Assembly (NCBI GenBank): GCA_938022205.1
Contig: CALIEB010000001.1
Location: 62,001-126,000 of the forward strand
DNA: 64,000 nt
Source: an uncultured Anaerolineae bacterium
Lineage (GTDB): Bacteria; Chloroflexota; Anaerolineae; Aggregatilineales; Phototrophicaceae
Reading direction: 5' to 3'
Of the stretch, positions 1,259 to 16,429 are shown piece by piece; within the stretch, counting starts at the first letter, position 1, and each line of letters opens with the position of its first letter. The notes beneath the pieces were generated by a model, which made no database searches, was not told the origin of the DNA, and saw only the letters and a program-made list of their open reading frames with translations. A program made the position numbers and the translations under genes.

Positions 1259-2074
1259 CTAGGCTTCTCCTACAGGGCGCGGATTGACGCGATCACCGCC
1301 CCACAAGGCGCGCACCAAACGCGGAGCTAGCTCGGCACCGAACAGCATCTCGCCGATAGGGTTGGCGGGGTCGCGCTCGGCGATAGCGCGGCGCACGTGC
1401 AGGTCACGCGCGGCAAGGACGGCTTGTTCTTCTTGCGGCACGGCGGGCGGGTTCGCCATCCACCCTAGCCAGCGGTCGAGCATTTCATGCGAGACCTCGC
1501 GAATTTTAGCGATGTTCTCGTCGCTGGGCTTGCACAAGAAGCACAGGCTAGTTGCCGATTGGGATTGGCGCATATACAGGCTTTTGCTGATAAACGGCGA
1601 AAATTCGGGGTCTTGGTGGAAGCTCAGGTAGCGTTCGTTGGCTGGCTCGTAGTAGGTGTCCACATACGCCAAATCTTCAATGAGGTTCACACGCGGCACG
1701 TAATCGACGTACATGAAAATGTCGGGCATCGTGCCTAACGCCATGCCAAAGTGCGGCACGTTGGTCTGTGCGCCCAGCCAAACCGTCAGGTGCATGTTGC
1801 AGAACGATTGCTTGGGGTTGCCGATGTAGCTATGCACCATCCAATCAATCTCGTCACTGGTGAACGCGCTCAACAGCCCTTTCGCCTCGCCGTTGAGCGA
1901 TTGGTAGGGTTGCAAGTCGGCGGTGCTAGCGTCAGGCACCAGCGTAAAGCGCGCGTCTAGCTTGGCGCGCAGCTCGCCCAAGATGTCCCAAAGCCGCAGG
2001 AAAACCTCGGAGTTGTCTACATCGGGACGTTCGCCAATGAGTTCAAATAAAGATTTTACAGTGCCTACTGCCAT
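1259..2074 (-). CDS. red chlorophyll catabolite reductase (RCCR)-family protein
   Basis: 271 residues, start supported by AGAGG six bases upstream. The sequence is colinear with plant RCCR, as I know that family, over most of its length. A VPHFGMALG segment (107-114) is followed by a VDYVPRVNLIEDL block (123-135), a DTYYE block (139-143), PEFSPFISKSLYMR (156-169), an SAT motif (173-175), a helical stretch, and a C-terminal LFGAELAPRLVRAL block (244-257). RCCR belongs to the ferredoxin-dependent bilin reductase superfamily and reduces the open-chain product of pheophorbide a oxygenase. There is no cofactor site to recognise, since RCCR uses ferredoxin. Neighbours are a hydrolase and a Rieske oxygenase, the two other enzyme types of the plant pathway. 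Whether the acidic active-site residues of the plant enzyme are kept could not be checked here. Substrate in this organism is unknown. Confidence 0.8.
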   Translation of the reverse strand: MAVGTVKSLFELIGERPDVDNSEVFLRLWDILGELRAKLDARFTLVPDASTADLQPYQSLNGEAKGLLSAFTSDEIDWMVHSYIGNPKQSFCNMHLTVWLGAQTNVPHFGMALGTMPDIFMYVDYVPRVNLIEDLAYVDTYYEPANERYLSFHQDPEFSPFISKSLYMRQSQSATSLCFLCKPSDENIAKIREVSHEMLDRWLGWMANPPAVPQEEQAVLAARDLHVRRAIAERDPANPIGEMLFGAELAPRLVRALWGGDRVNPRPVGEA

Positions 2075-2106: not shown

Positions 2107-3012
2107 TTAAGGCGTGTGGTTGTCAGGGAACAACCGGTAAACTTCATACCCTGTGACTTGGCTGGGGATGCCGTCAGCATCTGCCTTGCGCCAATAGCCG
2201 ACACCGAGCAGGCATTGGCTCGCCGCGTCATAGGTCTCGTAAAGCGTGATGCGCGTGCCAGACATGCCGTCTAACTCCATGCGCAGAAAATAGTCATACA
2301 AAAAGCCGCTGCCAACGGGGCGCATTGAGCTGTTGTAAATGCCGCTGACAATGACGTGCTGGTTACCGCCGCGCGGCTGCAGCAACACCGTGCGCACCGT
2401 GCCGTCAGGGCGGCGATCATGCCATGTCAGCGCGTCCTCAAAGCGGCGTTGAATGTCCATTTGATGCCGCAGCTCGCCTTCAGACCCGTATAACGCCCAA
2501 TTGCCTTTCCAATACAAGGTAGTCATGTACGGCTTGGTCGTCTTGTCCAGCTCCGCCCAAACGCCCGCGTTCTCCTTTGTTTCAGCGACGGCAACGCCAA
2601 CGATACGCGCCACTAGCTGCAGCTCGCTGCCATCGTAAAAAATGCCGCCCGTGAGCTGACGGTGGGGGTTCATCAGCGCGCCGAACGAAAGAAAGTCATG
2701 CCCAAAGCGCGGCCAACGCCCTGCGCCAACAATCGTCTCAGGCGTGAGGCTCAGCCCAAGCCCAACCACATCTTCGCCGTGATAGTGGCGTTTGCAGCCC
2801 TCCTTGCTCATCTCAAAGACCCAATCGCCCGCAAAAGCTGCCATCGGATGCTGGGCAAGCTCAGGGCTAACGTCACACCCCTGCAGCACACGAATGCGCT
2901 CGTTGGCGAGCGTTTCTAGCGTGCGCGTCTGGCGCACCGTGCCTATACACGTGCCCTCTTCGTCATGCACATACTCCGTCACGAGCCAACGCCCAGTAAA
3001 CCCGTCCGTCAT
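2107..3012 (-). CDS. uncharacterised protein with repeated beta-barrel (calycin-like) pattern
   Basis: 301 residues, not recognised as a named family. It is rich in predicted strands with aromatic and glycine turns, and shows the lipocalin-type first-strand signature Gly-x-Trp near residues 7-9 (FTGRW), again at 61-64 (AGDW) and 169-172 (KGNW). This suggests two fused barrels of about 150 residues each. No signal peptide or membrane segment. It lies between two operon members with short gaps (32 bases to the RCCR-like gene, 15 to the previous gene), so co-expression is almost certain. In a tetrapyrrole context a ligand-binding or bilin-handling role, as in lipocalin-fold CpcS/CpcT proteins, is conceivable but not shown. 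The ribosome site upstream (GGGGC) is weak. Confidence 0.7.
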   Translation of the reverse strand: MTDGFTGRWLVTEYVHDEEGTCIGTVRQTRTLETLANERIRVLQGCDVSPELAQHPMAAFAGDWVFEMSKEGCKRHYHGEDVVGLGLSLTPETIVGAGRWPRFGHDFLSFGALMNPHRQLTGGIFYDGSELQLVARIVGVAVAETKENAGVWAELDKTTKPYMTTLYWKGNWALYGSEGELRHQMDIQRRFEDALTWHDRRPDGTVRTVLLQPRGGNQHVIVSGIYNSSMRPVGSGFLYDYFLRMELDGMSGTRITLYETYDAASQCLLGVGYWRKADADGIPSQVTGYEVYRLFPDNHTP

Positions 3013-3027
3013 ACTTGCCCCATTCTG

Positions 3028-3924
3028 CTAGGCAGGCGCAAACGCCAGCACCCCGTAGGCAGTGGCGACGCGCTGGCTGCCGCGATACCACAGCTGCAGC
3101 AGTGCCTTGCTGCTCCCATCAAGGCTAATCACTTCGCGCCGCCACACGCGCAAGCCGTCCATATGATAAAAATAGCCGCTGGTGGCGCGTCCACCGCACT
3201 GGTTGAGGCTGCCCACTAATCCTCCGCGCTGCGTCCACGCCTGCCAGCCGTTAGTGTGCAAAGTGACGCGCTGCGCTTCGGGCAAGAGCGGTGACGCAAA
3301 CTGCCAGCATAGCGCGCCGTCTTCCGTCGTGATCGTTTCCTCGCTCTCGTAGGTTACGGCGGGCTTGCCCTCTTCGAGCAGCGTCATCGTGCCGCACCAC
3401 ATGCCCGTCCGCGTCCAAAGCGAGACAGCGCGCCCGGCGTTGGGGTCAGCGTGCAAATCATACGCCGTGCCGGGGGTCAGCGTCGGTTGAGCGTTGGGTG
3501 CGTCCGCTTGCACCATGCGATTTTCCCCCACCACCGTGTAGATAAGCTGGTCGCCGCGCGACATCTGTGCCAGCGAGAGCTGTGTCTTGCCGTCGGGCAA
3601 AACGTACAAGAAAAATCGCTGCGTTAGCCCCAAATCCGCCCAATAAGCGTTTGCGTCGACCAACCCCTCAGACAACACTTCGGCATGCCCGATATTGATG
3701 GGTCCCTTGTAGAAACGCTCGTTGGGGCGCGCCTGAATGATGTAGTAGCCGCTGGCTTTGAACGGCCCGACAAAGGTCACGTCAATGCGCGTTTCGTCAT
3801 CGCTGAGCTTTTGCACGTGGCGCATGTCCATGCCGTTGCCGACAAACCGCCCGCTGCCGTCATAAACTTCCGCGCTGCCAACCCACTGCCCTATAGCTTG
3901 TGTAAATGCCCGTCCCGTTTGCAT
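3028..3924 (-). CDS. uncharacterised two-repeat beta-barrel protein
   Basis: 298 residues from the ATG at 3924, chosen over an upstream ATG at 3999 because AGGGAGT precedes it and the longer form would run into the DUF3891 gene. Two similar halves are visible: GQWVG at 12-16 and GMWCG at 174-178 each open a strand-rich segment, a pattern known from cyanobacterial DUF3598-type and other calycin proteins. No catalytic motif, signal peptide or metal site is evident. It starts 12 bases after the stop of the DUF3891 gene and ends 15 bases before the next beta-barrel gene. The family assignment is tentative; the two-domain reading rests only on the repeated signature and on length. Confidence 0.7.
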   Translation of the reverse strand: MQTGRAFTQAIGQWVGSAEVYDGSGRFVGNGMDMRHVQKLSDDETRIDVTFVGPFKASGYYIIQARPNERFYKGPINIGHAEVLSEGLVDANAYWADLGLTQRFFLYVLPDGKTQLSLAQMSRGDQLIYTVVGENRMVQADAPNAQPTLTPGTAYDLHADPNAGRAVSLWTRTGMWCGTMTLLEEGKPAVTYESEETITTEDGALCWQFASPLLPEAQRVTLHTNGWQAWTQRGGLVGSLNQCGGRATSGYFYHMDGLRVWRREVISLDGSSKALLQLWYRGSQRVATAYGVLAFAPA

Positions 3925-3935
3925 CGCTACTCCCT

Positions 3936-4751
3936 TTAGCCTGCCACAAAGCGCACCGTTTGGCGTTCGTGCGGCTGGTTGTTGTACACAGCGCGCCAAT
4001 CGGCACTTGCATCCGTAAACCGCTGGAGATAACGCCCGTCGGTGTGCGCTAGCACTTCATGGGCAAAGGGGAAGGGGTCAAGCGCGACCGTGTTCGGGGC
4101 AACAGGACGCGCCGCTATCGTCACGTCTTCGGTGGGCGTGCGCGGCACATGGGCAAACGTCGTTGGCACTAGCGCGTCGAAATGGGTCATCTGAATGTAC
4201 AACGCGAGCGTGTCAAAAAACTGCAGCAGCTTGTAGTGATAGAACAGCCCTTCTTCGGTCACCCAAGCAGCGGTTTCTGGGTCGTCTTGCAGCTGTGCTT
4301 TTAAGCGCGCTTGCCGTTTCAGCTCTTGCGCTAGCATGTCATCGACTTGTTGGCGCAGGTCGGGCGCGATGGTGTCGATATAGATTTTGTCCGACAAGCC
4401 GTAGCGTCCATGATACAGCCCATAGGTGTGCATGCTGGAAATTAGCCCACAAAACGGGTGATGCGCCTCGTTAAAATCCGGCGACGCGCTGCCCGTCGCA
4501 ATGAGCTGCGCGGTGGGCGTTTGTGTCAGGTGATACGGCAGCCCCGTGCGCGGGTCAAGCGTTTGCGCAGCATCGACCATCTGCCAACCCGCGTCGTGGT
4601 GAGCGGTGATATAGCATAACAGTGGGTGCAAAGGGCTGGTCTCAAAGTATTCGTTGCCAAACGCTTCGGCGAACTGCCCGCTCGCCACCGTGTGGTCGGT
4701 TTGCATGATAATGAAATGTGGCATGCCCTCAGGCGCGGTTTGCACAATCAT
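3936..4751 (-). CDS. DUF3891 family protein
   Basis: 271 residues resembling DUF3891. After a short strand, His20 and GQFAEAFGN (25-33) are followed by an AHHDAGW block (50-56), LDPRTGLP (65-72), an NEAHHPFCGL block (94-103) and SMHTYGLYHGRYG (106-118). The regularly placed His and Asp residues (20, 51-53, 97-98, 108, 114) look like an HD-type metal site, which I infer; the family's biochemical function is not established. Its ATG overlaps the stop of the preceding gene (TAATG), so translation is coupled to the 157-residue beta-barrel protein. Presence inside this operon suggests an accessory hydrolytic or ligand-processing step. Confidence 0.75.
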   Translation of the reverse strand: MIVQTAPEGMPHFIIMQTDHTVASGQFAEAFGNEYFETSPLHPLLCYITAHHDAGWQMVDAAQTLDPRTGLPYHLTQTPTAQLIATGSASPDFNEAHHPFCGLISSMHTYGLYHGRYGLSDKIYIDTIAPDLRQQVDDMLAQELKRQARLKAQLQDDPETAAWVTEEGLFYHYKLLQFFDTLALYIQMTHFDALVPTTFAHVPRTPTEDVTIAARPVAPNTVALDPFPFAHEVLAHTDGRYLQRFTDASADWRAVYNNQPHERQTVRFVAG

Positions 4752-5224
4752 TAGCCTACCCTCACAAAGTCTTGGATTTGGAAAATGTGTGTTTTGCCGT
4801 CTCTGATTTTGTGCGTGATGATACGACGGTTGTTTTGGTCGATGAAGTAGTGGTTATTGTAAACAGTTGTGCCGCTCACTTGGCTCCAGATAGTGAACAC
4901 GTAGTTATAGGGCGTGAGCATCGTGCCTTCGATACGCACAAGCGGGCTATCACCGTAGCAGAACTTCTCGCGCACGTGCAAATCGGTGTGGAAGACCGTC
5001 GGTCCTACTTCGTACAAATTGTCGAAATCTTCGTGAAGATGCCACGTTTGCGCGTCCAACCAATACACGTCCATGTGTACGGCTGCGGCTTCGACAAAAA
5101 CGCCCTGTGGGGTAAAGGTCTTGCACAAGCCTTCCCAACGCCCCATAAAGCATTGGTAAGGTATCATCCACGTTTCCGTTACGCCATAATGCTTTAGTTG
5201 CAGATGCTCGGGTAATGTGTTCAT
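4751..5224 (-). CDS. small lipocalin-like (single calycin barrel) protein
   Basis: 157 residues, first gene of the operon that runs to the left edge. Strand-rich, with the GRWEG signature at 28-32 followed by alternating aromatic/polar segments and an ExF-type turn, consistent with one calycin barrel. No signal peptide, so probably cytoplasmic. It is about half the length of the two larger beta-barrel proteins downstream and could be a single-domain relative of them. Its stop overlaps the start of the DUF3891 gene by one base. A hydrophobic-ligand binding role is a structural inference only. The ribosome site (AGAGAC) is poor. The promoter region just upstream contains a perfect palindrome that may be an operator. 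Confidence 0.75.
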   Translation of the reverse strand: MNTLPEHLQLKHYGVTETWMIPYQCFMGRWEGLCKTFTPQGVFVEAAAVHMDVYWLDAQTWHLHEDFDNLYEVGPTVFHTDLHVREKFCYGDSPLVRIEGTMLTPYNYVFTIWSQVSGTTVYNNHYFIDQNNRRIITHKIRDGKTHIFQIQDFVRVG

Positions 5225-5314: not shown

Positions 5315-6040
5315 TCAGAGCGAAATGCGGTATCTGAAGCGGTCGCCATGAAAAGCCGCCCGCAAAAACTCTAGCGGCTCGCCCTCCGCGCTGTACACGA
5401 CGCGCTCCATGTAAAGGATTGGCGTGCCACCCGCCATGCCTAACAGCTCGGCTTCCAGCTCACAGGAAAGACGTGCCTCTAAAGTGCGCTCGACACGCGA
5501 GTTTTCCATCTGTGGCAGCCCCTTTAGATAGTCTAAAGAGTCGCCCTCTTCAAGCGTGTTCATGTTAAGCTGCGCGACGTATTGCTTAGGCACATAGGCG
5601 AAGTGATAGCCAATCGTCTCTTCACCCACGAGCCGCAAGCGGCGCACCGTCCAAACCGGCGCGCCTTCGCCAAGACGCAGCATGGCGGCGGTGTGACCAT
5701 CGGCTGTTGTCCACTCGGTTGATAGCAGCCGCCAACCAAGCTGAATGCCTTGCTTGCGCATATACTCGGTCATCTCGAGCGAAGCGTTCGGGTTATACGT
5801 CACCTTTGGCTTGGCGACAAACGTCCCACGCCCGCGATGCCTTACCAAATACCCCTCGTTGACCAGCTCGCTAAGCGTCTGGCGTACTGTCGTGCGGCTA
5901 AGCTCGTAGTCTTCCTGTAACTCTTGTTCACAAGGGAACATTTCGCCTGCCGCCCACTCATTGTTATGGATGCGCTCTAGCAAAATGGTTTTCAGCTGAT
6001 AATAAAGCGGCACAGGGGAATTACGATCCAGGGTGTTCAT
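5315..6040 (-). CDS. GntR family transcriptional regulator, HutC/UTRA type
   Basis: 241 residues from ATG 6040 (MNTLDRNSPVPLYYQ), which places the winged helix at its normal N-terminal position; an in-frame ATG at 6190 would add a non-homologous leader overlapping the PPC gene. Residues 7-77 form the GntR DNA-binding domain (PLYYQLK, SRTTVRQTLSEL, GYLVRHRGRGTFV). Residues from about 95 to the end form a UTRA effector domain with the usual LERVVYS-type end pattern, which senses small acids or related metabolites. HutC-type regulators commonly repress the catabolic operon they sit in and are released by a substrate or intermediate. Here it lies between two minus operons and facing a divergent one; shared palindromic motifs in front of them make it the likely regulator of all three. 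Confidence 0.9.
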   Translation of the reverse strand: MNTLDRNSPVPLYYQLKTILLERIHNNEWAAGEMFPCEQELQEDYELSRTTVRQTLSELVNEGYLVRHRGRGTFVAKPKVTYNPNASLEMTEYMRKQGIQLGWRLLSTEWTTADGHTAAMLRLGEGAPVWTVRRLRLVGEETIGYHFAYVPKQYVAQLNMNTLEEGDSLDYLKGLPQMENSRVERTLEARLSCELEAELLGMAGGTPILYMERVVYSAEGEPLEFLRAAFHGDRFRYRISL

Positions 6041-6080
6041 CAAAACCAACTCCACGTTCTGCGCTTGACGGACAGATAGC

Positions 6081-6545
6081 TTAAAACAACGGCGGAAAGT
6101 GCCACAGCGACAAGCCTGTTTCGGCATGTGGCGCGCGCACGACGGGTTGCCCAGCAAACGCCAGCAGCGTAAACTCAACGGCAAAGGCATGCGCTTGGGC
6201 GCAGTGCCCGCCGATTAATTGCGTCGCGCCGGCGTGGTCGCGCTGTGCAACCACTAAGTGCAAATGAAAATGGGGTTGGTTATCAAGGCGGCTTAGTGTG
6301 CCATGCCCGCCGACAATTTCCAGCGCGCCTTCCCACGTTTGCGGCGCGTGGCGCGTTTGCGTGGTGAAGTCATAGGCGGTGAACTGCGCCAGCGTTAACC
6401 CTCCTAGCATCATCACCAGACCGGCACCAATTTGGTAGTGGTCAGCCAAGCGCACGAACGCCTCGTGCAGGTTTTCGCCCGCCGTGAGCGTCCCCATGTA
6501 GGCTTGCACGCCCGCCGTGCCGACCTTCTGCACCGTGATGCTCAT
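6081..6545 (-). CDS. PPC/DUF296 domain protein (PD1-like)
   Basis: 154 residues starting at ATG 6545, which overlaps the stop of the HMG-CoA lyase gene (ATGA); the upstream in-frame ATG at 6650 would lie inside that gene. The sequence shows the PPC/DUF296 pattern: GENLHEAFVRLA (23-34), GLVMMLGGLTLA (42-53), EIVGGHGTLS (76-85), PHFHLHLVV (91-99) and GGHCAQAHAFAVEFTL (112-127). The histidines of HFHLH and GGH match the metal-binding set of bacterial and archaeal single-domain PPC proteins. These form trimers; their role is unsettled and they are not necessarily DNA-binding, despite the plant AT-hook relatives. Coupled translation with the lyase suggests a metabolic or regulatory role in this pathway. 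Confidence 0.85.
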   Translation of the reverse strand: MSITVQKVGTAGVQAYMGTLTAGENLHEAFVRLADHYQIGAGLVMMLGGLTLAQFTAYDFTTQTRHAPQTWEGALEIVGGHGTLSRLDNQPHFHLHLVVAQRDHAGATQLIGGHCAQAHAFAVEFTLLAFAGQPVVRAPHAETGLSLWHFPPLF

Positions 6546-7465
6546 GCGCCTGTCTCCTGCGGCGAGGTCTGCCTGCTTTCGTACCACGCGCGAATGCGCC
6601 CACCAATCGGTCGCCCCATAAGTGGTTCGAGGAAGCGCACCACGTCCCACAATGCCTCAAAGCGAATGCCCGTCTCGTAGCCCATCTTGTGCAGCATGAA
6701 CACAAGGTCTTCAGTGGCGAGATTGCCCGCCGCGCCGGGCGCGAAAGGACAGCCACCCAGCCCGCCGATGCTGGTGTCAAAGCGGCGGACCCCCGCATTC
6801 AAGGCAGCCAGCGCGTTCGCTAGCCCCATCGCCTGCGTGTCGTGAAAATGCACCGCCAGCTTTTCCGCGCCATAACGCCCAACGAACAGCTCGCAAAGCG
6901 CACCAACTTGCGCAGGGTGAGCGTGTCCGATGGGGTCGGTTGGACACAGCTCGTCCACCCCTTGCTCATAGAGAAAATCAGCGTAGCGCAGCACGCGCTC
7001 TTGCGGCATCTGCCCTTCGAACGGGCATACCCACGCGCCGGCGACGTAGCCGCGCACCCAAACGCCCGTCTGCTTGGCGCGGGTGATAATGGCGCGATAG
7101 CTGTCTAGCCACTCGTCGGGCGTGCGCCCGCTGTTGCTGCGCGAGAGGCTGTCGCTGACGATTAACACCAGTCCAACGGCACGGCAGCCCGCTTCCACCG
7201 CGTTGTCAAAGCCCCTTTCGTTGAAGACCAACGCCATCGCGTGTGCTTGGGGTGCGTTCTGGCGCACATGGCGCACAATTTCGGCAGCATCCGCCATCAT
7301 CGGCACGGCTTTGGGGTTGACAAAGCTCGTCAGCTCTAAGTGCTGTAAGCCCGCCGCCAGCAGCCTGTCCACCATCGCCAGCTTGTGCGCGGTGGTGATA
7401 GGAGCGCGCTCGTTCTGCAAGCCGTCGCGCGGGCCCACTTCGTAAATTCGCACCTGCTCGCCCAT
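6542..7465 (-). CDS. HMG-CoA lyase family protein (HMG-CoA or citramalyl-CoA-type lyase)
   Basis: 307 residues, normal length for the family. The TIM-barrel active site is intact: VGPRDGLQNE with Arg13 and Asp14, ELTSFVNPKAVP (44-55), the metal ligands HFHDT (His206, His208), the flexible-loop Cys239 in GGLGGCPFAPG, and Asn248. It should cleave a 3-hydroxy-3-methylacyl-CoA or similar tertiary alcohol thioester by retro-Claisen reaction. HMG-CoA itself (leucine breakdown) is one candidate, but the gene sits one base behind a CoA-transferase gene and in a cluster without leucine-degradation enzymes. A citramalyl-CoA-like or substituted malyl-CoA substrate therefore fits better (inference). Its stop overlaps the PPC gene start. 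Confidence 0.85.
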   Translation of the reverse strand: MGEQVRIYEVGPRDGLQNERAPITTAHKLAMVDRLLAAGLQHLELTSFVNPKAVPMMADAAEIVRHVRQNAPQAHAMALVFNERGFDNAVEAGCRAVGLVLIVSDSLSRSNSGRTPDEWLDSYRAIITRAKQTGVWVRGYVAGAWVCPFEGQMPQERVLRYADFLYEQGVDELCPTDPIGHAHPAQVGALCELFVGRYGAEKLAVHFHDTQAMGLANALAALNAGVRRFDTSIGGLGGCPFAPGAAGNLATEDLVFMLHKMGYETGIRFEALWDVVRFLEPLMGRPIGGRIRAWYESRQTSPQETGA

Positions 7466-7466
7466 G

Positions 7467-8663
7467 CTAAATCACACCCTCTGCGCGCAGCTGCGCAATT
7501 TCGGCCTCGCTCTTGTGCAGCAGCTCCTGCAGCACGCAATCGGTATGCTGCCCAAGCAGCGGCGGCGAGCTGTAGGTATCTTCGTAAGTGTCGGAGAGCT
7601 TAATCGGGTTGCCCGTCATCTTGACCGGCGTACCGTTGGGGTGCGTCACCTCAACGATCATCTGACGCGCCAGCACCTGCGGGTTGGCGACGGCTTGTGC
7701 CATCGTGTAGACTGGCGCGCACGGCACGCGCACCTCCGTCAGCCGTTCAATCCAATAACTCTGCGTGTTGGTCATAAAGACCTCGCTCAGGCGTTGGTTA
7801 ATCAAGTCCTGATTGCGCCAGCGTCCGGGCTGCGTGCGGTTCTCTTCGGTATCCAATTCAGGCAACTGCAAGAGCTGCATGAGGTTTGCCCAAAACTCGT
7901 CGGTAATCACCGCGACGATGATATAGCCGTCCTGCACGGGGAAGCTGTTGTAAGGCACGTGGACAAAGTGCGCGTTGCCGAGCGGCTGCGGCACTTCGCC
8001 GCTGAGAAAGTACATCGTCGCCATGTAGTTGAGCAAGCTGATTTGCGCGTCGAGCATAGAAATGTCGACGTGCTGCCCGCGTCCGGTTTGTTGGCGTGCC
8101 ACCAACGCCGCGAGCACGCCAATCACCGCCATCATGCCGCCGCCCAAGTCACCAATCGGGATGCCGCTGCGCACAGGCGTGCTGTTAGGCAGCCCGGTAA
8201 TGCTCATGCCGCCGCCCATCGCCTGCGCCACCATATCAAATGCCACGCGGTCTTTGTCGGGGCCCGTCTCGCCGAAGCCAGTGATGCAGCAGGTGATGAT
8301 GCGCGGGTTAATCGCAGACAGCACGTCATAATCAATTTTGAGCTTCTTCACGACACCCGCGCTAAAGTTAGACAGCACAACGTCGCTATGCGCCACTAGC
8401 TCGTAAAACAACGCCAGCCCGCGCTCGCTTTTGAGGTTGAGCGTGATGCTCTTCTTGTTGCGGTTAAGCGTGAGGAAGTACGCGCCCATGCCGTCAACGC
8501 TGTTGGCGGGGTCGGTCGCTAGTAGCTTGCGCGTGCCTTCGCCCGTTTTTGGTGGCTCAACCTTGATGGTATCTGCGCCCATGTCGGCAAGCATCATGCC
8601 CGCGTAGGGACCAGATAACATGTGCGTGAGGTCTAAGATACGGATGCCGTGTAATGCTTTCAT
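7467..8663 (-). CDS. CaiB/BaiF family (class III) CoA-transferase
   Basis: 398 residues, typical length. The N-terminal block RILDLTHMLSGPYAGMMLADMGADTIKVEPP (starting at residue 8) is diagnostic. The catalytic aspartate is Asp143 in AFDMVAQAMGG, and the glycine-rich GDLGGGMMAVIGVLAAL (171-187) and DISMLDAQ (200-207) blocks follow. Class III enzymes move CoA between carboxylic acids via an aspartyl-CoA intermediate and need no ATP. The lyase gene downstream is one base away, so the two probably activate and then cleave the same acid, as CoA-transferase/lyase pairs do in itaconate and citramalate pathways (known elsewhere, inferred here). RBS AAGGAAAG lies about 11 bases upstream of the ATG. 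Confidence 0.92.
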   Translation of the reverse strand: MKALHGIRILDLTHMLSGPYAGMMLADMGADTIKVEPPKTGEGTRKLLATDPANSVDGMGAYFLTLNRNKKSITLNLKSERGLALFYELVAHSDVVLSNFSAGVVKKLKIDYDVLSAINPRIITCCITGFGETGPDKDRVAFDMVAQAMGGGMSITGLPNSTPVRSGIPIGDLGGGMMAVIGVLAALVARQQTGRGQHVDISMLDAQISLLNYMATMYFLSGEVPQPLGNAHFVHVPYNSFPVQDGYIIVAVITDEFWANLMQLLQLPELDTEENRTQPGRWRNQDLINQRLSEVFMTNTQSYWIERLTEVRVPCAPVYTMAQAVANPQVLARQMIVEVTHPNGTPVKMTGNPIKLSDTYEDTYSSPPLLGQHTDCVLQELLHKSEAEIAQLRAEGVI

Positions 8664-8697
8664 GTGCTTGTGGTCTTTCCTTCTGAAGTTGCTAAAG

Positions 8698-9330
8698 TTA
8701 GGTTAATTCAACCCGCGCCAGATAGTCTAAAACCTCTTGGCGCGAGACGACATCCCCATATTTGGCGTTGATGTCAAACAGGTTTGCCTCGTGCGGCGCA
8801 TGATGGCGGTCGGCGACGCACTCGCGCGGCACAACCACGCGAAAGCCATACTGCATGCCGTCCACCGCTGTAGCGCGAATGCAGCCGCTCGTCGAGCAGC
8901 CCGTCAGCAGCAGCGTGTCGACGTGGTGGCTGGTCAGCAGCGAAACCAGCGACGTGCCAAAGAACGCGCTGGCGTACTGCTTTGTCACGATGACATCGTT
9001 GGGCGTAGGGGCAAGCGTCGGCACAATCTCCGCCAGCGGCTCGCCCGCCACCATGCGCTGCAGCACGGGGATTTTTTGCACAAACAAGCCCCCGTCGCGG
9101 GTGTTAGCGTTGTAAAGCACCTGCGTAAAGACGACCAACACGCCCTTCTCGCGCGCTAACGCCAACACGTCGACGGTTTGCTGCACTGCCTCACGCACAT
9201 CAGGGGCATAGAGCGGCGAGCCCTCATCAACATAGGCATTGATAAAGTCTACAACAAGAAGCGCGGGCGTACGCCCGAAACCCAGCCGCCCGTCAAATAC
9301 GCCCGCGTAATTGTGCGCAAGATCACTCAT
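8698..9330 (-). CDS. isochorismatase-family amidohydrolase (maleamate/N-carbamoylsarcosine amidase-like)
   Basis: 210 residues with the cysteine-hydrolase triad of the family: Asp28 (LLVVDF), Lys117 (VTKQYASAFFGT) and Cys150 in the TGCSTSGCIRATA block (143-155). The TSGC-x-RAT form and overall length resemble N-carbamoylsarcosine amidase and maleamate amidase (NicF) rather than isochorismatase proper. The expected reaction is hydrolysis of a linear amide such as a half-amide of a maleate-type diacid to the free acid plus ammonia. A maleate-isomerase-family gene and a cyclic amidase gene in the divergent operon support such a role. Four-base overlap with the preceding membrane protein gene. 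Exact substrate not readable. Confidence 0.88.
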   Translation of the reverse strand: MSDLAHNYAGVFDGRLGFGRTPALLVVDFINAYVDEGSPLYAPDVREAVQQTVDVLALAREKGVLVVFTQVLYNANTRDGGLFVQKIPVLQRMVAGEPLAEIVPTLAPTPNDVIVTKQYASAFFGTSLVSLLTSHHVDTLLLTGCSTSGCIRATAVDGMQYGFRVVVPRECVADRHHAPHEANLFDINAKYGDVVSRQEVLDYLARVELT

Positions 9331-10040
9331 GATGCCGCCGCAGCCTTTACGCCGCGCACCGCTTCGCCGACGCGCGTCAAGACGCGGTAGGCAGCATAGG
9401 CGAACGCGCCGTTAGAAATCGTGTTGCTGATTTGAGAAGCCCACTCGAGCGGAATAGTACGCGGCTCGATGCGCGCCATGCCCGTCAGCATGAGAATAGC
9501 GACCATGTTAAAGGCGAACAACGCTGCCGCCACGCGGTCTTGCTGGCGCAGGCTCTGGCGAATGGCTAAGCCGCCCGTCGCAAAGTTACCAACGGTCGTC
9601 AGCATCAGCATGATAAGATACCACGTGCGCGCCTCTGGGCGTGCGAACGCCATGCCAAGCGAGGCAAGCGAAACGCCCGCCACAATCACAATCGGCAGCA
9701 CAGCAGGATGCCCGAGCTTAGGCACGCTGCGTCCAGTCGCCTCGCGCTGCACGTACCACAGCATAAATGCCATCACCGTGAACCCCGCGCCCATAAGATA
9801 GAACAGGCTGTCGTTGAAAAAAGCGACGTTGGTTTCGCCGTTCGTCATCGCCATGACGAGCTTCCACGTGGCTTTGCTCGCGCCGCCAAGCGTGGTCAGC
9901 ACCCACGCGATGTGGGCAGCCTTGCCAAAGTTTGCGTTTTGGCGTGCCACGAAGCGCGCCAAAAAGAGCATCCCCAGCGAAGAAAGCACAACGGGCATAA
10001 AATCTTGCAACGCCATCACCACAGAATACGTCTCGTTCAT
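9327..10040 (-). CDS. multi-spanning membrane protein of unknown function
   Basis: 237 residues with about seven hydrophobic segments (roughly 14-31, 41-60, 78-98, 110-130, 135-155, 166-190, 200-222), no soluble domain and no motif I recognise. The stop overlaps the amidase start by four bases, so it is translated with the catabolic genes. The similar size and layout of the next upstream gene (10080-10823) suggest that the two could work as a pair in the membrane, perhaps in uptake or in sensing the substrate. No transporter signature was seen, so this is context only. It ends in a charged and alanine-rich tail. Confidence 0.8.
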   Translation of the reverse strand: MNETYSVVMALQDFMPVVLSSLGMLFLARFVARQNANFGKAAHIAWVLTTLGGASKATWKLVMAMTNGETNVAFFNDSLFYLMGAGFTVMAFMLWYVQREATGRSVPKLGHPAVLPIVIVAGVSLASLGMAFARPEARTWYLIMLMLTTVGNFATGGLAIRQSLRQQDRVAAALFAFNMVAILMLTGMARIEPRTIPLEWASQISNTISNGAFAYAAYRVLTRVGEAVRGVKAAAAS

Positions 10041-10079: not shown

Positions 10080-10823
10080 TTACGAAGCGGCGGGTTGCAC
10101 GCTGCCGAGCGCACCAAGCCCTTCACGCGCTTGCAGGCGCGCCGTAACGAACAACAAGCTGGCGAGCAAGACAAATTCACCGGCGTTGCCGACCCAAAGC
10201 CCAACGCGCGAAGCAGGCACCGCCGCCGTGATAAACATGACCACCGCACCTGCTAGCAGCCACCAAAGGCTGGCTTTGCGCCCAATCATAAAGCCCCAAA
10301 TAGCCACGACAATCACGGTCGCAATCGAGGCAAGCGGCGGCAGCCCACGCGCCTCCAGCACGCCCTCTTCGTAGGTCACGCCCTCGCACAACTGGTTTTC
10401 CGTCAGGCGTTCGGCATAGCGCAAAATGCCGTCATGGCAAGCTGGTTTAAGGTGCATGCCGATAAAGCTCTGCGACATGCCCACGCCTATCAAAATCACC
10501 GCCAAGCCAGCCATGATGTTGCGGTTGCGCGTAGACTGCGCCATCGGCACGCCAGCACGTCGCGCCAGTTCCAACGCCGTCAGTACCAAAAGCGGGGTCA
10601 TCACGGCATGCAGCAAGTAGCGCGGCACGTTCAGCGTTTCTAACGTGCTGCCCACGCCAATGCTCATGCCGAGCGCGAGGATAAGGTTGTCATACGCCAG
10701 CCCCGCCGCCGTGATAATCACAATCAACGTGCCAAGCGAACGTTGACGCTGCCACAACAGCGTCCCCCAAACAACCAAACTAAGATGAAGCACAACCAAC
10801 AGTGGGTGTAAAAAAGTGGACAT
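10080..10823 (-). CDS. multi-spanning membrane protein of unknown function
   Basis: 247 residues, about seven hydrophobic segments, first gene of the minus operon facing the peroxiredoxin gene. Visible features are an aspartate-asparagine pair in the second segment (AYDNLILALG, 43-52), LNVPRYLLHAVMTPLL (64-79), and a loop of about 50 residues with two cysteines (near 129 and 146) between predicted membrane spans. The cysteines could form a disulfide if the loop is outside the cell. Not recognised as a named transporter. Separated from the next membrane gene by 39 bases. The position at the head of the operon suggests a membrane step such as uptake, which is inference. Confidence 0.8.
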   Translation of the reverse strand: MSTFLHPLLVVLHLSLVVWGTLLWQRQRSLGTLIVIITAAGLAYDNLILALGMSIGVGSTLETLNVPRYLLHAVMTPLLVLTALELARRAGVPMAQSTRNRNIMAGLAVILIGVGMSQSFIGMHLKPACHDGILRYAERLTENQLCEGVTYEEGVLEARGLPPLASIATVIVVAIWGFMIGRKASLWWLLAGAVVMFITAAVPASRVGLWVGNAGEFVLLASLLFVTARLQAREGLGALGSVQPAAS

Positions 10824-11478: not shown

Positions 11479-12222
11479 ATGGTAGACGCATTAGGATGGC
11501 GCAAAAAGTTTGGTGTAATCGCGCCCAGCACCAACACGATTGTAGAGCCTGATTTTTACCGCATGCGCGTAGAAGGCGTTACCGCGCACTTCTCGCGCAT
11601 TTGGATACGCAACCAAAACCTTAGCAGCGACAGTGCGTTCCAAGAGCTGCTTGTGCAAATCCGCGACGAAATCCACTACGCCATCCAGCGCGTTCTCACC
11701 GCCGAAGTCGACTACATGGTGATGGGCATGAGCGCGGAGACCTTCTGGGGCGGCGTAGAGGGCAATCGCCAGTTTGTCAAGCAAATTAAGGACTGGTCAG
11801 GAATGGGCGTTGCCACCGGCGCAGAGGCTTGTGAGCGCGCGCTCAAGCTCTTCAACGCCAAAAAGATTGCGGTCATCACACCTTATCAGCCCATCGGCGA
11901 CGAAAACGTGCGCCGCTTCTTCAGCGAGCTGGGCTTTGAGGTGGGCAAAGTGAAGGGACTACGCTGTCCTACGGCGGTGGCAATTGCGCACGTCCAAGAG
12001 GATGAGCTGCGCCGAGCGTTGTACGAAATCAACGACGACAGCGTCGACGCGCTCGTGCAAGTTGGCACCAACTTGAGCATGGTGCGCCTTGCTGATGAGG
12101 CGGAACGCTGGTTAGGCAAGCCTGTCATTGCGATTAACGCCGCCACGTGGTGGATGGCACTGCGTGACAACGGCATCACCGACAAGGTTTACGGCTGCGG
12201 TCAGCTGCTGCGCGACTATTAA
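11479..12222 (+). CDS. maleate isomerase / Asp-Glu racemase superfamily protein lacking the usual cysteines
   Basis: 247 residues, good RBS (GAGGAG). The N-terminus FGVIAPSTNTIVEPDF (11-26) is typical of maleate cis-trans isomerase and arylmalonate decarboxylase relatives, and two Rossmann-like halves follow (VDYMVMGMS at 77-85; KKIAVITP at 128-135). Family members normally carry a cysteine in each half. Here the aligned positions appear to be Met84 (MGMSAETF) and Gly196 (QVGTNLS). The three cysteines present (118, 163, 240) are elsewhere. So the fold is clear, but a two-cysteine isomerisation mechanism is doubtful; a different reaction on a maleate- or hydantoin-like compound is possible. 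It is placed between the peroxiredoxin and the monooxygenase in one operon. Confidence 0.8.
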   Translation: MVDALGWRKKFGVIAPSTNTIVEPDFYRMRVEGVTAHFSRIWIRNQNLSSDSAFQELLVQIRDEIHYAIQRVLTAEVDYMVMGMSAETFWGGVEGNRQFVKQIKDWSGMGVATGAEACERALKLFNAKKIAVITPYQPIGDENVRRFFSELGFEVGKVKGLRCPTAVAIAHVQEDELRRALYEINDDSVDALVQVGTNLSMVRLADEAERWLGKPVIAINAATWWMALRDNGITDKVYGCGQLLRDY

Positions 12223-12237
12223 CCACAAGGGGCGGTT

Positions 12238-13428
12238 ATGACACACACCATCACACTACCCGTTATCATCGTTGGCGCGGGACCCGTCGGCTTGTCGTTA
12301 GCGTTGGCGTTAGCGCGGCGCGGCGTACACGTCGAAGTCTTCGAGGCACTGCCCGAGCTTAGCACAGAGGCGCGCGCCAGCACTTTTCACCCGCGCACGC
12401 TAGAGATGCTCGCCGAGTGGGGCGCGCTCGAGGCATTGCTCAAGCACGGGCATGTCGTCGACCGCCTGCAGTTTTGGGAGCGCGAAAACCGCCAGCTCGT
12501 CGCCGAGTTACCCTACAGCGTCATCGCAAATGACACACCCTACCCCTTCCGCCTGCAGTGTCCCCAAAGCACGCTCACGTGCTTACTCAAACCGATGCTG
12601 GAGGCGCATCCTTGCGCCCGCGTCCACATGGGGCATACGTTCGTCGCCTACCGAGAAGGCAACGACCATGTCGAAGCAACCTTTACCCGCAGCGACGGCA
12701 GCACTCACACCGTCAAGGGCGCGTTCCTGTGCGGCGCGGACGGCGCGAAGAGCGCGGTGCGCCGCGAGCTGGGCATGACGTTTGAGGGCATGACCTACGA
12801 AGACCGCTTCTTGTTGGTGGCGAGCGATGTCAACCTGAGCGCGCTGTTTCCCGATTTTGCGTCGGTGTGCTACGTGTTTGACCCGCACGAGTGGGTGATT
12901 GTGCTGCACCTACCGGACATCACGCGGGTGGTCTTCCGCCTGCGCGACGAAGAGTCTGACCACATCGCCCAAGACGAAGCGGCTATCCGCCAGCGCATGC
13001 GCGGCTTTATCGGGGCTGACCTTGACTACACCATTCGCGGCGTGTCAATCTACAAAGTACATCAGCGCATCGCCGAGAGCTTTCGGCGCGGGCGCGTGCT
13101 ACTGCTGGGCGACGCGGCGCACATCAACAACCCAATGGGTGGCATGGGCATGAATAGCGGCATTCACGACGCTTACACGCTGGTTGAGCCGCTTCTGACC
13201 GCTTTAGAAACAGGCGCAACCGATGCGTTGGATGCTTGGGCGCAAGCGCGGCGTACCTTCGCCTTACAGGATATCCAAAGCTACACCGACAAAAACTACC
13301 GTGACATGAGCGCGAGCGAGCTGGCTTATCGCCAAGCGCGCAACGACCACCTGCGCGCCATCGCTAGCGACCCCGCCGAGATGCGCCGCTTCTTGCTCAA
13401 AGCCTCTATGCTGGAGGACAGAGTATGA
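12238..13428 (+). CDS. FAD-dependent class A monooxygenase (PHBH fold)
   Basis: 396 residues, the usual length for single-component aromatic hydroxylases. FAD motifs are complete: GAGPVG (13-18), the GADG motif (167-170) and GDAAH (291-295) followed by PMGGMGMNSGIHDA. These enzymes use NAD(P)H and oxygen to hydroxylate electron-rich aromatic or heteroaromatic rings; homologues include 6-hydroxynicotinate 3-monooxygenase and kynurenine-type enzymes. No membrane anchor. The stop overlaps the aldehyde dehydrogenase start by four bases (ATGA). In this cluster it may oxidise a pyrrole or other N-heterocycle before ring opening, which is inferred from the downstream cyclic amidase. Confidence 0.92.
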   Translation: MTHTITLPVIIVGAGPVGLSLALALARRGVHVEVFEALPELSTEARASTFHPRTLEMLAEWGALEALLKHGHVVDRLQFWERENRQLVAELPYSVIANDTPYPFRLQCPQSTLTCLLKPMLEAHPCARVHMGHTFVAYREGNDHVEATFTRSDGSTHTVKGAFLCGADGAKSAVRRELGMTFEGMTYEDRFLLVASDVNLSALFPDFASVCYVFDPHEWVIVLHLPDITRVVFRLRDEESDHIAQDEAAIRQRMRGFIGADLDYTIRGVSIYKVHQRIAESFRRGRVLLLGDAAHINNPMGGMGMNSGIHDAYTLVEPLLTALETGATDALDAWAQARRTFALQDIQSYTDKNYRDMSASELAYRQARNDHLRAIASDPAEMRRFLLKASMLEDRV

Positions 13429-14879
13429 CCACGTCGACAACGCAGACGCTGCTCAAGGGGCTGCTGTGGATAGATGGCAAGGAAACCCCCGCCCTTTCAG
13501 GCGAAACATTTGCCACCTATGCGCCTGAAGACGGGCGCAAGCTCGGCGACGTGGCGCGTGCCAGCAGTGCCGACGTGGCGCGTGCCGTCAGCGCAGCCGA
13601 GCGCGGCTTTGCAGCTTGGTCAGCCCTGCCGCCCGCCGAGCGCGAGCGCGTGCTACTGCGTGCCGCCGACCTGCTGGAAGCCGAAAGCGACAAGCTCATT
13701 GACCTCATCATCGACGAAAGCGGCTCAACCATCACCAAAGCGCGCTTTGAATGTCGCTACGGCGCGAGCTTGCTGCGCACCGCAGCGGGTGAAGCGCGCC
13801 GCCTATACGGCGATACCTTCCCCAACGACCGCCCGCACCGCATCTCGATGGTCTTCCGCGAGCCGCTTGGGGTTGTCGTCGCCATTTCGCCGTTTAACGC
13901 CCCGCTTGCCCTGCTCGCCAAGATGGTCGTATTTCCGCTGGCGGCGGGCAACGCCGTGATTAGCAAGCCGAGCGAAGAAACGCCGTTAGTCGCGCTGGCG
14001 TTCGCGCGCATTTTGCACGAGGCAGGGCTGCCAGACGGCGCGCTCAACATGCTAACCGGCTACGGCAGCGAGGTGGGCAGCGCGCTGGTAACCCATCCCA
14101 CTGTGCGCGGCATCGCCTTTACGGGCAGCACCGCCACAGGGCAAAAAATCGGACAGCTCGCCATGCAGCACATGACACGCCTTCAGCTGGAGCTGGGCGG
14201 CAAAAACCCGCTGCTGGTCTTGCGCGATGTGGACGTTGAGGCTGCCGTTAACGCCACGGTGCTAGGCGCGTTCTATCACGGCGGACAAATTTGCATGTCA
14301 AGTTCGCGCCTCATCGTCGAGCGCGCCGTTGCCGACGACTATCTCAGCGCGCTCAAAACGGCGGCAGAGGGTTTGTATCTAGGCGACCTGCGCGACGAGC
14401 GCACCGCCTACGGTCCGCTTATCCATCAAGGCGCGTTAGACAAAGTGAGCCGCCACGTGCAAGCCGCGCTTGAGGCAGGCGCGCAGTGCCTCACCGGCGG
14501 CGCGGTACATCACGGGCTAACTTACCAGCCGACCCTGCTCGTCGAACCACCGCGCGACAACACCATCTGGCGCGAAGAGACGTTCGGGCCCGTCGCCTGC
14601 GCTGTTATCGTCGATGACCTTGAGCAAGCGATTGCCGCAGCCAACGAAAGCGATTACGGTCTGAGCGCAGGCATTCTCACCAACGACATGAAACGTGGCT
14701 TGCAAGCGGCGCGGCGCATTCGCTGCGGCGGCGTGCATCTAGGCTTGCACTCCTTCCAAAGCGACGCGCTTGCCCCGGTCGGCGGGTTCGGGCTGTCAGG
14801 CATGGGGCGCAGCGGCGGCAAATACAGCACAGAACACTTTACTGAACTTAAGTGGATTAGCATTGAGTTGGAGGAGTAA
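13425..14879 (+). CDS. NAD(P)-dependent aldehyde dehydrogenase
   Basis: 484 residues, full length for the family. Catalytic residues are in place: Glu256 in LELGGK, nucleophile Cys290 in GGQICMSS, and the EETFGPV block near 386. The cofactor loop SPFNAPL (155-161) and FTGSTATGQ (232-240) are normal; the sequence is closest in style to benzaldehyde or vanillin dehydrogenases, though the subfamily cannot be fixed by eye. It would oxidise an aldehyde intermediate to the acid. Coupled to the monooxygenase by a four-base overlap. Its stop codon directly abuts the ATG of the dihydropyrimidinase-like gene, with the GGAGG ribosome site lying inside its own end. Confidence 0.93.
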   Translation: MTTSTTQTLLKGLLWIDGKETPALSGETFATYAPEDGRKLGDVARASSADVARAVSAAERGFAAWSALPPAERERVLLRAADLLEAESDKLIDLIIDESGSTITKARFECRYGASLLRTAAGEARRLYGDTFPNDRPHRISMVFREPLGVVVAISPFNAPLALLAKMVVFPLAAGNAVISKPSEETPLVALAFARILHEAGLPDGALNMLTGYGSEVGSALVTHPTVRGIAFTGSTATGQKIGQLAMQHMTRLQLELGGKNPLLVLRDVDVEAAVNATVLGAFYHGGQICMSSSRLIVERAVADDYLSALKTAAEGLYLGDLRDERTAYGPLIHQGALDKVSRHVQAALEAGAQCLTGGAVHHGLTYQPTLLVEPPRDNTIWREETFGPVACAVIVDDLEQAIAAANESDYGLSAGILTNDMKRGLQAARRIRCGGVHLGLHSFQSDALAPVGGFGLSGMGRSGGKYSTEHFTELKWISIELEE

Positions 14880-16349
14880 ATGTTTGATTTAATTGTTAAA
14901 AACGTGCGCATTGTGCGTCCGAACCACACGGAGATTTTTAGCGGCGACATCGGCATTCGTGACGGCAAGTTCGCCCACATTGCCTCCAGCATCGCCGCGC
15001 CCGACGGCACGCCGACGTTTGACGGGCGCGGAAGGCTGGCGATGCCCGGTGCCATTGACCCACACACCCACGTGGGCATCTATGTGCCGCCCCAGCAAGA
15101 CGCGCCCACCGAATCGGCAGCGGCAGCATCGGGCGGTGTCACAACCCTCATCCCCTACGTGCGCACGGGCAGCCTCTACCTCAACATGGGCGGGTCACTC
15201 AAGCCTTTCTGGCACGAGCTGATGCGCCAGTCCGAAGGCAGCTATTACGTCGACTACGCTTACCACGTGTCGCCGATTACGCGCCAGCAGCTTGGCGAGA
15301 TGGCGTTTCTGCTGACCGAATGTGGCGCGCCCAACTTCGGCGAGGTGTTCATGTTCTACGGGCTGCACGGCTTGCACGGTCGCTCGGACACGCAGTCCAA
15401 GTGGCTGATGTTAGAAGAAGGTGACCACTACGACCTCGCACACTTTGACTTTATTTGCCGCGAGGCGGCGCGCCTGCAGGCGCAATATCCCGAACTTGCC
15501 CCCTACATTCAGGTGAGCTGGCACTGCGAAACGCCTGAAATCCTGCGCGCCTACGAGACCAAAATCCGCCAAGAGGGCAAGCTCACAGGCTTAGAGGCTT
15601 ACAGTGCGGCGCGACCGCCCCACAGCGAAGCCGTTGCCATCCACATTGTGGGCGCGCTGGCCCATCACGCCGGCTTGACGCAGGTCAACATCTTGCACAT
15701 CACGTCGCGCGAGGCGATGGAAGCCGCACTCGCCGTGCGTGCCACCTACCCACACATCACGTTCGGGCTCGAAGTGACGGCGGGGCATCTGCTGCTTGAC
15801 ACGTCTTGTCCGATGGGGGTGTATGCCAAAGTCAACCCGCCTATCCGCCCGCGCGAACACGTCGAATACTTGTGGGAGCGCGTGCTGGACGGCACGGTGG
15901 AATGGATTATCACCGACCACGCCAACTGCCCCAAAGACCAAAAAGTCGACAAGGACGACCCTGACAACATCTGGAAGGCGCACGCGGGCTTCGGCGGCAC
16001 GGAATACCTGCTGCCCGCCATTTTCAGCGAAGGCACGAAGCGCGGGCTTTCGCCTAACCGCGTTGCCGAGCTGCTGTCATGGAATCCAGCGCAACGGTTT
16101 GGGCTGCTGAACAAGGGCGACATCGCCGAAGGTTATGACGCTGACCTCGTGCTGCTCGACCCTGATGAGACGTGGACAATCCGCGCCGAAGACTCGTTTT
16201 CGACGCAGGGCTACACGCCGTTCGAAGGCATTGAGCTAAAAGGGCGCGTGAAAACCACCTTCGTGCGCGGTATGCGCGTGTTTGACGAAGGCAAGATTGT
16301 AAGCGAACCGTGCGGGGTGTATCAGCCGCGCCCCACGCGGAAAGCCTAA
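14880..16349 (+). CDS. dihydropyrimidinase/hydantoinase-family cyclic amidase, bridging Lys replaced by Glu
   Basis: 489 residues of the amidohydrolase superfamily. Metal-site residues in order are His62 and His64 (IDPHTH), His215 (SWHCE), His273 (ILHITS) and Asp346 (IITDH). In hydantoinases a carboxylated lysine in a KVFMAYK-like strand bridges the two metals; the matching strand here reads GEVFMFYG, so Glu155 takes that place. Glutamate bridges are known in other amidohydrolase branches, so the enzyme may still be binuclear but is not a standard hydantoinase. The expected reaction is opening of a cyclic amide or imide. A maleimide-type substrate would give a half-amide for the nitrilase or isochorismatase-type amidases nearby (inference). 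Confidence 0.85.
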   Translation: MFDLIVKNVRIVRPNHTEIFSGDIGIRDGKFAHIASSIAAPDGTPTFDGRGRLAMPGAIDPHTHVGIYVPPQQDAPTESAAAASGGVTTLIPYVRTGSLYLNMGGSLKPFWHELMRQSEGSYYVDYAYHVSPITRQQLGEMAFLLTECGAPNFGEVFMFYGLHGLHGRSDTQSKWLMLEEGDHYDLAHFDFICREAARLQAQYPELAPYIQVSWHCETPEILRAYETKIRQEGKLTGLEAYSAARPPHSEAVAIHIVGALAHHAGLTQVNILHITSREAMEAALAVRATYPHITFGLEVTAGHLLLDTSCPMGVYAKVNPPIRPREHVEYLWERVLDGTVEWIITDHANCPKDQKVDKDDPDNIWKAHAGFGGTEYLLPAIFSEGTKRGLSPNRVAELLSWNPAQRFGLLNKGDIAEGYDADLVLLDPDETWTIRAEDSFSTQGYTPFEGIELKGRVKTTFVRGMRVFDEGKIVSEPCGVYQPRPTRKA

Positions 16350-16365
16350 AACTCCTCTTTGGTCC

Positions 16366-16397
16366 GGGCGGAGCAAGTGCTGCTTCGCCCTTTTTTT
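16366..16397 (+). terminator. intrinsic terminator between cyclic amidase and nitrilase genes
   Basis: A ten-pair stem (GGGCGGAGCA at 16366-16375 with TGCTTCGCCC at 16381-16390, one G-T pair) and a five-base loop are followed by seven T residues. It falls inside the apparent operon, so the nitrilase gene may receive reduced read-through or have its own promoter. Confidence 0.8.
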
Positions 16398-16429
16398 GGC
16401 GATAAGTCTTGAGCAGAAAGTGATAACTT

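Follow-up and report, generated by a model that had tools for sequence, protein, structure and literature searches.

RCCR-type proteins encoded in a putative tetrapyrrole-catabolic operon of an uncultured Anaerolineae bacterium

Annual synthesis and breakdown of chlorophyll are on the order of 10^12 kg (PMC7318184). In plants breakdown follows the PaO/phyllobilin pathway (chlorophyllase or PPH, SGR, PaO and RCCR); which enzymes act on the pyrrole units past the phyllobilin stage is largely open. For small nitrogen-containing rings, lower pathways are known from nicotinate degradation, namely the NicF and NicE steps of aerobes and the dimethylmaleate hydratase and dimethylmalate lyase of Eubacterium barkeri, and CoA-dependent cleavage by CaiB and HMGL enzymes is found in the citramalate metabolism of Chloroflexus. 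Bacterial relatives of the plant proteins have also been described: Rockwell et al. (PMC10151467) placed Ca. Schekmanbacteria sequences in the RCCR outgroup, and an SGR homologue of Anaerolineae bacteria was found to be active (PMC8531759). Here we describe an RCCR-type protein of Anaerolineae, RCCR1, whose linked gene set makes the fate of the pyrrole units directly testable.

The window analyzed is a stretch of 64,000 nucleotides, positions 62001-126000 of contig C1 in a 3.0 Mb genome (G000); L003 denotes the contig beyond its left edge. The plus strand of 1259-2074 holds several in-frame stops, and the open reading frame is that of the minus strand. Residues 31-257 of RCCR1 match positions 5-251 of the 253 in the PF06405 profile (E 5.9e-19), at 68.7 bits against a curated cut-off of 24.9 bits, and the RCCR family membership proposed in an earlier note on this DNA was thereby clearly borne out. 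When phmmer was run against PDB sequences, solely Arabidopsis RCCR entries (3agb, 3aga and 2zxk) were matched, with E-values of 5e-9 to 8e-9; the alignment is colinear over residues 35-257 and includes the SPFISKSLYMR and the C-terminal LFGAELAPRLVRAL blocks, as had been read from the letters. A profile of 14 bacterial homologues (RCCR1 and its paralogue RCCR3) reached AtRCCR at 5e-17 and the bilin reductase GtPEBB (6qwq) at 5e-7, as well as PebA weakly. The AlphaFold model of RCCR1 was poor (pLDDT 37, built on a two-sequence alignment only). With this model Foldseek placed FDBRs at the top at E 0.015 or worse, and VIA-align gave AtRCCR in its top rows (Z 6.4, 139 residues, 3.8 A), PebS, PcyA and coproporphyrinogen oxidase just below (Z about 6), and unrelated folds at 5-6. 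As to the FDBR-type alpha/beta/alpha sandwich fold, these structural matches are consistent with the sequence result, to which so weak a model adds little. Judged from its sequence, RCCR1 is a divergent member of the known RCC_reductase family.

The RCCR1 gene is a central one of 22 that follow each other on the minus strand with no gap above 90 bp, in a run that continues past the window. Transcription proceeds from an isochorismatase-type amidase through CaiB1, HMGL1, a PCC-domain protein, a GntR regulator, orf157, a DUF3891 protein, lip323 and lip301 to RCCR1, and from there through an alpha/beta hydrolase, a Rieske oxygenase, RCCR2, lip314, an SDR and HMGL2 to LeuC, LeuD, CaiB2, an acyl-CoA-dehydrogenase-fold (ACAD-fold) flavoprotein, orf194 and an aldehyde dehydrogenase. 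A divergent plus-strand set (11479-18103) encodes a maleate-isomerase relative, an FAD monooxygenase (FMO), a further aldehyde dehydrogenase, a cyclic amidohydrolase and a double nitrilase (Table 1). RCCR1 had been described as the core of a catabolic operon; the operon context stands, and is larger than first read, but RCCR1 is not its sole core, since RCCR2 is encoded three genes downstream. No ferredoxin gene was identified within the cluster. Because the GC content of the cluster (0.59-0.60) is like that of its surroundings (0.59), there is no sign of a recent import.

Table 1. Features of the cluster, numbered by position in the window unless a contig is given
Feature	Position	Strand	Remarks
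Rieske non-heme iron oxygenase (start), 382 aa	1..284, off window; G000:C1:61136-62284	minus	PF00355 4.6e-23; VanA_C PF19112 2.2e-28
Alpha/beta hydrolase, chlorophyllase-like, 317 aa	304..1257	minus	GGHSGGG nucleophile elbow
RCCR1, PF06405 RCC_reductase family protein, 271 aa	1259..2074	minus	ATG start
lip301, conserved all-beta protein, no known family	2107..3012	minus	no Pfam match
lip323, lip301 paralogue	3028..3924	minus	ATG at 3924
DUF3891 protein, 271 aa	3936..4751	minus	PF13030 E 1.2e-36
orf157, small conserved protein	4751..5224	minus	62-73% identical in 7 other genomes; no Pfam match
GntR/UTRA regulator (HutC-like)	5315..6040	minus	PF00392, PF07702; conserved adjoining cluster
PCC-domain protein	6081..6650	minus	PF03479 8e-15
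HMGL1, HMG-CoA-lyase-type lyase	6542..7465	minus	NF004283 299.5 bits, cut-off 246
CaiB1, CaiB-type CoA-transferase	7467..8663	minus	PF02515 1.8e-127
Isochorismatase-superfamily amidohydrolase	8698..9330	minus	phmmer vs PDB E 5e-50, 2e-40
Conserved cluster membrane protein	9327..10040	minus	homologues at 5 other cluster loci; no Pfam match
Second conserved membrane protein	10080..10823	minus	homologues at 3 other cluster loci
Maleate isomerase / arylmalonate decarboxylase family protein	11479..12222	plus	PF17645 1.5e-16; maleate isomerase 2xed 3e-9, 4fq5 1e-8
FAD monooxygenase (FMO)	12238..13428	plus	PF01494 3.7e-64; adjoins RCCR3 in other genomes
Aldehyde dehydrogenase, FMO module	13425..14879	plus	63-67% orthologues beside FMO/RCCR3
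Cyclic amidohydrolase (hydantoinase/dihydropyrimidinase family), candidate cyclic-imide hydrolase	14880..16349	plus	PF01979 1.5e-16; PDB allantoinase/hydantoinase E 1e-41
Double nitrilase-domain C-N hydrolase	16430..18103	plus	PF00795, two stretches, 7e-42; beside RCCR3 in G213, G234, G514
RCCR2, divergent RCCR/FDBR-type protein, 239 aa	C1:60420-61139, beyond window edge		directly after Rieske gene

The family proved to be rare and its neighbourhood conserved. Of 396 genomes of the class, 13 contain PF06405, as does a single genome from another class; none of 14 control genomes has it. Within the class RCCR1 or RCCR3 occurs in 13 genomes, RCCR2 in 16 and both in 12 of the 396 (Fisher p 9e-19, shared descent uncorrected), and RCCR2 is present in 12 of the 14 RCCR1/3 carriers, the exceptions being G248, a draft of 570 contigs, and the complete genome G514. 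The cluster is distributed sporadically: its carriers represent at least six families and stand dispersed among relatives that lack it. Among the genomes listed for the host's own family, only this one carries PF06405. The same genes recur repeatedly in the carrier neighbourhoods. A scan of genome contigs gave one locus, a 92%-identical cluster on a contig of an uncultured Anaerolineae bacterium, in agreement with the Chloroflexota host that had been proposed. A tblastn comparison of RCCR1 and RCCR2 with plasmids gave no match, and the RCCR1/3 profile found no relative on viral contigs. The PF06405 proteins split in two, with RCCR1 in or beside the Rieske module and RCCR3, which is 32-36% identical to it, beside either nitrilase, FMO and aldehyde dehydrogenase or the amidase; each carrier genome has one of the two only. 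In a tree of RCCR1, RCCR2 and RCCR3 with plant RCCR and GtPEBB, RCCR2 and RCCR3 formed clean groups and RCCR1 was not recovered as a single one. A bacterial RCCR-type cluster bears on the origin of plant RCCR, on which we make no claim because the two long eukaryotic branches of this tree are unreliably placed.

The substrate-binding acids of plant RCCR, which we take to be Glu154 and Asp291, stand by alignment at the positions of GtPEBB Asp99 and Asp219. Comparison at these positions, put forward earlier as a check on RCCR1, gave a divided result: Asp291 is kept as Asp235, within AERDPAN and present in all homologues reaching that region, but Glu154 is replaced by Ala112, an Ala that is invariant across the 14 aligned RCCR1 and RCCR3 homologues. 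The AExDPAN-type motif shared by RCCR1 and RCCR3 is closer to the AEKDPA of GtPEBB than to the plant sequence, and at the position of AtRCCR Phe218, which varies among relatives, RCCR1 has Gln172. With just one of the two plant acids retained, the name RCC reductase cannot be assumed for RCCR1. RCCR2 has Asp at both FDBR acid positions (PHFTLD and VDxVW), that at the first being invariant, and in GtPEBB both Asp99 and Asp219 were shown to be essential (PMC6755814). By hhalign comparison of the RCCR1/3 and RCCR2 alignments (probability 98.3%, E 2.4e-14), the two are homologous proteins, with different active sites. Since RCCR2 has kept both FDBR-type acids, it is the more likely catalyst, and RCCR1 would be a second reductase or a binding partner. 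It might even be that RCCR1 is a non-catalytic partner which holds the linear tetrapyrrole or joins a reducing RCCR2 in a heteromer, a reading that cuts across those of the operon's substrate. The invariant Ala of RCCR1/3 against the invariant Asp of RCCR2, together with their strong co-occurrence, would fit such a role, but RCCR1 shares with GtPEBB a conserved Asp235 and AExDPA motif, some RCCR1/3 genes are distant from RCCR2, and the loss of an acid is no proof of inactivity because a bacterial pre-1 FDBR without Asp105 retained weak activity (PMC10151467). A non-catalytic RCCR1 is a possibility to be kept in mind, though a somewhat unlikely one.

The Rieske gene directly precedes RCCR2 in all 13 loci read. 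In the host's own protein both the CxH..CxxH ligands and the His-containing mononuclear iron motif ENGMDIAHAPFVH are intact, and the nearest solved relatives are SxtDIOX, NdmA and DdmC. Its identification as PaO was considered and dropped, the protein being of the VanA/NdmA type and none of 16 Rieske homologues matching the plant PaO domain PF08417. The gene is duplicated in G342, G138 and G228 (L024:2684-3634 and 5472-6509; L055:10672-11733 and 12791-13837; L056:6075-7133 and 8125-9186), where one copy has the Rieske ligands only and the other the mononuclear-iron motif only. The copies would form a heteromeric oxygenase by complementary loss, which is the expected outcome of selection for a working two-part oxygenase. 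A chlorophyllase identity for the alpha/beta hydrolase was dropped as well; its score against PF07224 is 23.6 bits, below the cut-off of 26, and one of nine orthologues matches this profile, most being generic Abhydrolase_5 proteins. S152, D210 and H254 of the hydrolase are invariant. STAY-GREEN Mg-dechelatase (PF12638) was found in none of 13 carriers by a search that found it in 11 of the 396 class genomes; a chlorophyll substrate may consequently arrive as pheophorbide or have its Mg removed by an unrecognized protein. The 11 STAY-GREEN carriers and the 13 RCCR carriers among the 396 do not overlap, and no overlap would be expected by chance either. By their family assignments, none of the enzymes encoded alongside RCCR1 is orthologous to PaO, chlorophyllase or SGR of plants.

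Five conserved proteins of the cluster have no Pfam match (lip301, lip323, lip314, orf157 and orf194, the last at L003:6914-7498). lip301 is related to lip323 and to the off-window lip314 (L003:13459-14403); when modeled by AlphaFold with its paralogues it was all beta strand at low confidence (pLDDT 49), and its Foldseek matches were too scattered to interpret. All three paralogues are probably all-beta. Profiles of lip314 and orf157 gave nothing convincing against PDB sequences. From so uncertain a model, it is a guess that lip301, lip323 and lip314 might be pigment-binding barrels or carriers. The DUF3891 protein has invariant D19-H20 and H51-H52-D53, recalling HD-type metal sites, and may act in the pathway as a metal enzyme.

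The remaining genes resemble those of lower pathways. The nearest NCBIfam models of CaiB1 are succinate-glutarate and succinyl-CoA:mesaconate CoA-transferases, under their cut-offs, and the isochorismatase-type amidase is nearest to N-carbamoylsarcosine amidohydrolase and to 3ot4 and 3uao, of which 3uao is presumably the maleamate amidase NicF. The cluster LeuC scores over the NF001614 cut-off (529.8 against 385) and LeuD over that of TIGR02087, LeuD/DmdB (197.5 against 108.95); this LeuC is an extra copy, the genome having other LeuC-type genes. HMGL2, LeuC, LeuD and CaiB2 are contiguous with the Rieske-RCCR2 pair in G000, G181, G213, G234, G138, G228 and G020, and in G213, G234, G138 and G228 the gene right after CaiB2 is that of the cyclic amidohydrolase. 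The place of HMGL1 is taken by an HpcH/HpaI aldolase in G234 and G213, and the corresponding module of G138 and G228 has a PrpB-type (methylisocitrate lyase) enzyme; a lyase step is supported by this exchange, because HMGL, HpcH/HpaI and PrpB-type enzymes, though unrelated, each break carbon-carbon bonds of hydroxy acids. The HMGL2 of G213 carries a fused flavin reductase domain (PF01613, L052:12808-14202), and relatives in several genomes are equally long; such a fusion fits the ACAD-fold flavoprotein as part of a two-component monooxygenase. Hematinic acid and dipyrroles are reported as oxidation products of chlorophyll (PMC7318184), and older work cited in that paper counts maleimides among them. 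Taken by its families, the lower gene set points to substituted maleimides, which are pyrrole-ring oxidation products, although the maleimide branch could serve another N-heterocycle instead.

On balance we favor, as modestly probable, the reading that the operon is catabolic for a chlorophyll-type tetrapyrrole in a heterotrophic Anaerolineae bacterium and that RCCR1 and RCCR2 act on the opened ring, where both substrate and chemistry are what we infer from gene families and their arrangement. In such a pathway the alpha/beta hydrolase would take off the ester side chain, the Rieske oxygenase would open the macrocycle oxidatively by analogy with plant PaO, and RCCR2 and RCCR1 would reduce the linear tetrapyrrole or bind it for reduction. 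Flavin-dependent oxygenases (the ACAD-fold enzyme with a flavin reductase like the one fused to the lyase in a relative, and the FMO) may then cut the chain to substituted maleimides. These would yield ammonia and dialkylmaleates through the cyclic amidohydrolase together with either the NicF-like amidase or the nitrilase. A LeuCD-type hydratase or the maleate-isomerase-type enzyme might act on the double bond, after which a CaiB CoA-transferase and an HMGL, HpcH or PrpB-type lyase would cleave the dialkylmalate to an acyl and a pyruvate-type product. Several findings speak against this reading: the Rieske enzyme lies outside the PaO family, the hydrolase scores under the chlorophyllase cut-off, STAY-GREEN was found in none of the carriers searched, RCCR1 and RCCR3 lack the first acid, and the cluster has no identified ferredoxin gene. 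That one cluster, occurring sporadically in Chloroflexota, provides for the full bacterial mineralization of chlorophyll-type tetrapyrroles to central metabolites is a bolder proposal, which we put forward tentatively and with some doubt.

The type II reaction centre protein PF00124 is absent from the whole of the host's genome, in keeping with the view that its owner is no phototroph, and from 10 other carriers (11 of 14). Canonical heme oxygenase (PF01126) is absent in 13 of 14 carriers, and because both proteins are so widely missing the pigment probably comes from outside. Three RCCR3 carriers, G138 and G228 (L023, L026) and G514 (L031), are phototrophic Chloroflexota with PF00124, and perhaps recycle their own bacteriochlorophyll.

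In a second reading the operon degrades bilins (biliverdin, bilirubin, phycobilins or excreted products), with RCCR1 and RCCR2 as FDBR-like reductases of an already linear bilin and a Rieske enzyme that hydroxylates or cleaves it. Bilins would yield the same maleimides; the profile link of RCCR1/3 to GtPEBB and PebA and the essential Asp pair in RCCR2 agree with such a substrate, and activity has already been shown for pre-PcyA FDBRs from heterotrophs (PMC10151467). Nonetheless, the matching family is PF06405 and not PF05996, canonical heme oxygenase is missing from 13 of 14 carriers (though imported bilins would not require it), and bilins leave less need for an oxygenase of the ring-opening type and for an esterase, so that we regard bilin degradation as unlikely. 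The fold may also have been recruited for another N-heterocyclic or dipyrrolic substrate, in a pathway that leads to dialkylmaleates without any tetrapyrrole. The Glu154-type acid is lost in RCCR1/3, and RCCR3 lies apart from the Rieske gene in a short nitrilase-FMO-aldehyde dehydrogenase cassette in G213 and G514, the latter without RCCR2. Against this, all characterized members of the RCCR/FDBR group act, to our knowledge, on a linear tetrapyrrole, and two separate paralogues of the group are found here alongside a Rieske oxygenase, with both acids kept in RCCR2; a recruitment of this kind seems quite unlikely. A role of RCCR1 in supplying a phytochrome-type photoreceptor with its bilin chromophore, as its fold group would allow, is very improbable in a catabolic operon whose 14 carrier genomes have no above-cut-off match to the ferredoxin-dependent bilin reductase family PF05996 (two sub-threshold matches being RCCR1 itself) and nearly no heme oxygenase.

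Returning to the catabolism of a chlorophyll-type tetrapyrrole, no description of an RCCR-Rieske operon was found for any organism in the open-access literature searched; the gene combination is apparently new, as would be the pathway if our reading is right. Compared with Arabidopsis RCCR (2zxk, 3aga), RCCR1 belongs to the same Pfam family over the full profile, is colinear with it and shares the Asp at position 291, but is remote in sequence, has Ala at the Glu154 position and is encoded in a bacterial operon without PaO or SGR partners. The FDBRs (PcyA, PebA/B/S and HY2) are linked to the cluster through the GtPEBB match of RCCR1/3 and the RCCR2 Asp pair, and the bacterial pre-PcyA proteins through their heterotroph setting; unlike in these systems, the genes described here have as neighbours a Rieske oxygenase gene and those of a maleimide-type lower pathway, not heme oxygenase, V4R or globin genes. 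With the lower nicotinate pathways the cluster has in common an isochorismatase-superfamily amidase, a maleate-isomerase family enzyme, a LeuCD/DmdAB-type hydratase and a malate-type lyase, to which it adds tetrapyrrole-type enzymes and CoA-dependent cleavage. Like the plant PaO/phyllobilin pathway, it places an esterase, a Rieske oxygenase and an RCCR-type protein together, yet its Rieske enzyme is of the VanA/NdmA/SxtT type and SGR is absent, so by the families of its enzymes the plant pathway has not simply been transplanted into Anaerolineae. If the proposal is true, bacteria too break down pigment by a Rieske-plus-RCCR logic, using enzymes that are not orthologous to those of plants, and whereas the plant pathway ends at phyllobilins, that of the cluster apparently continues to small acids.
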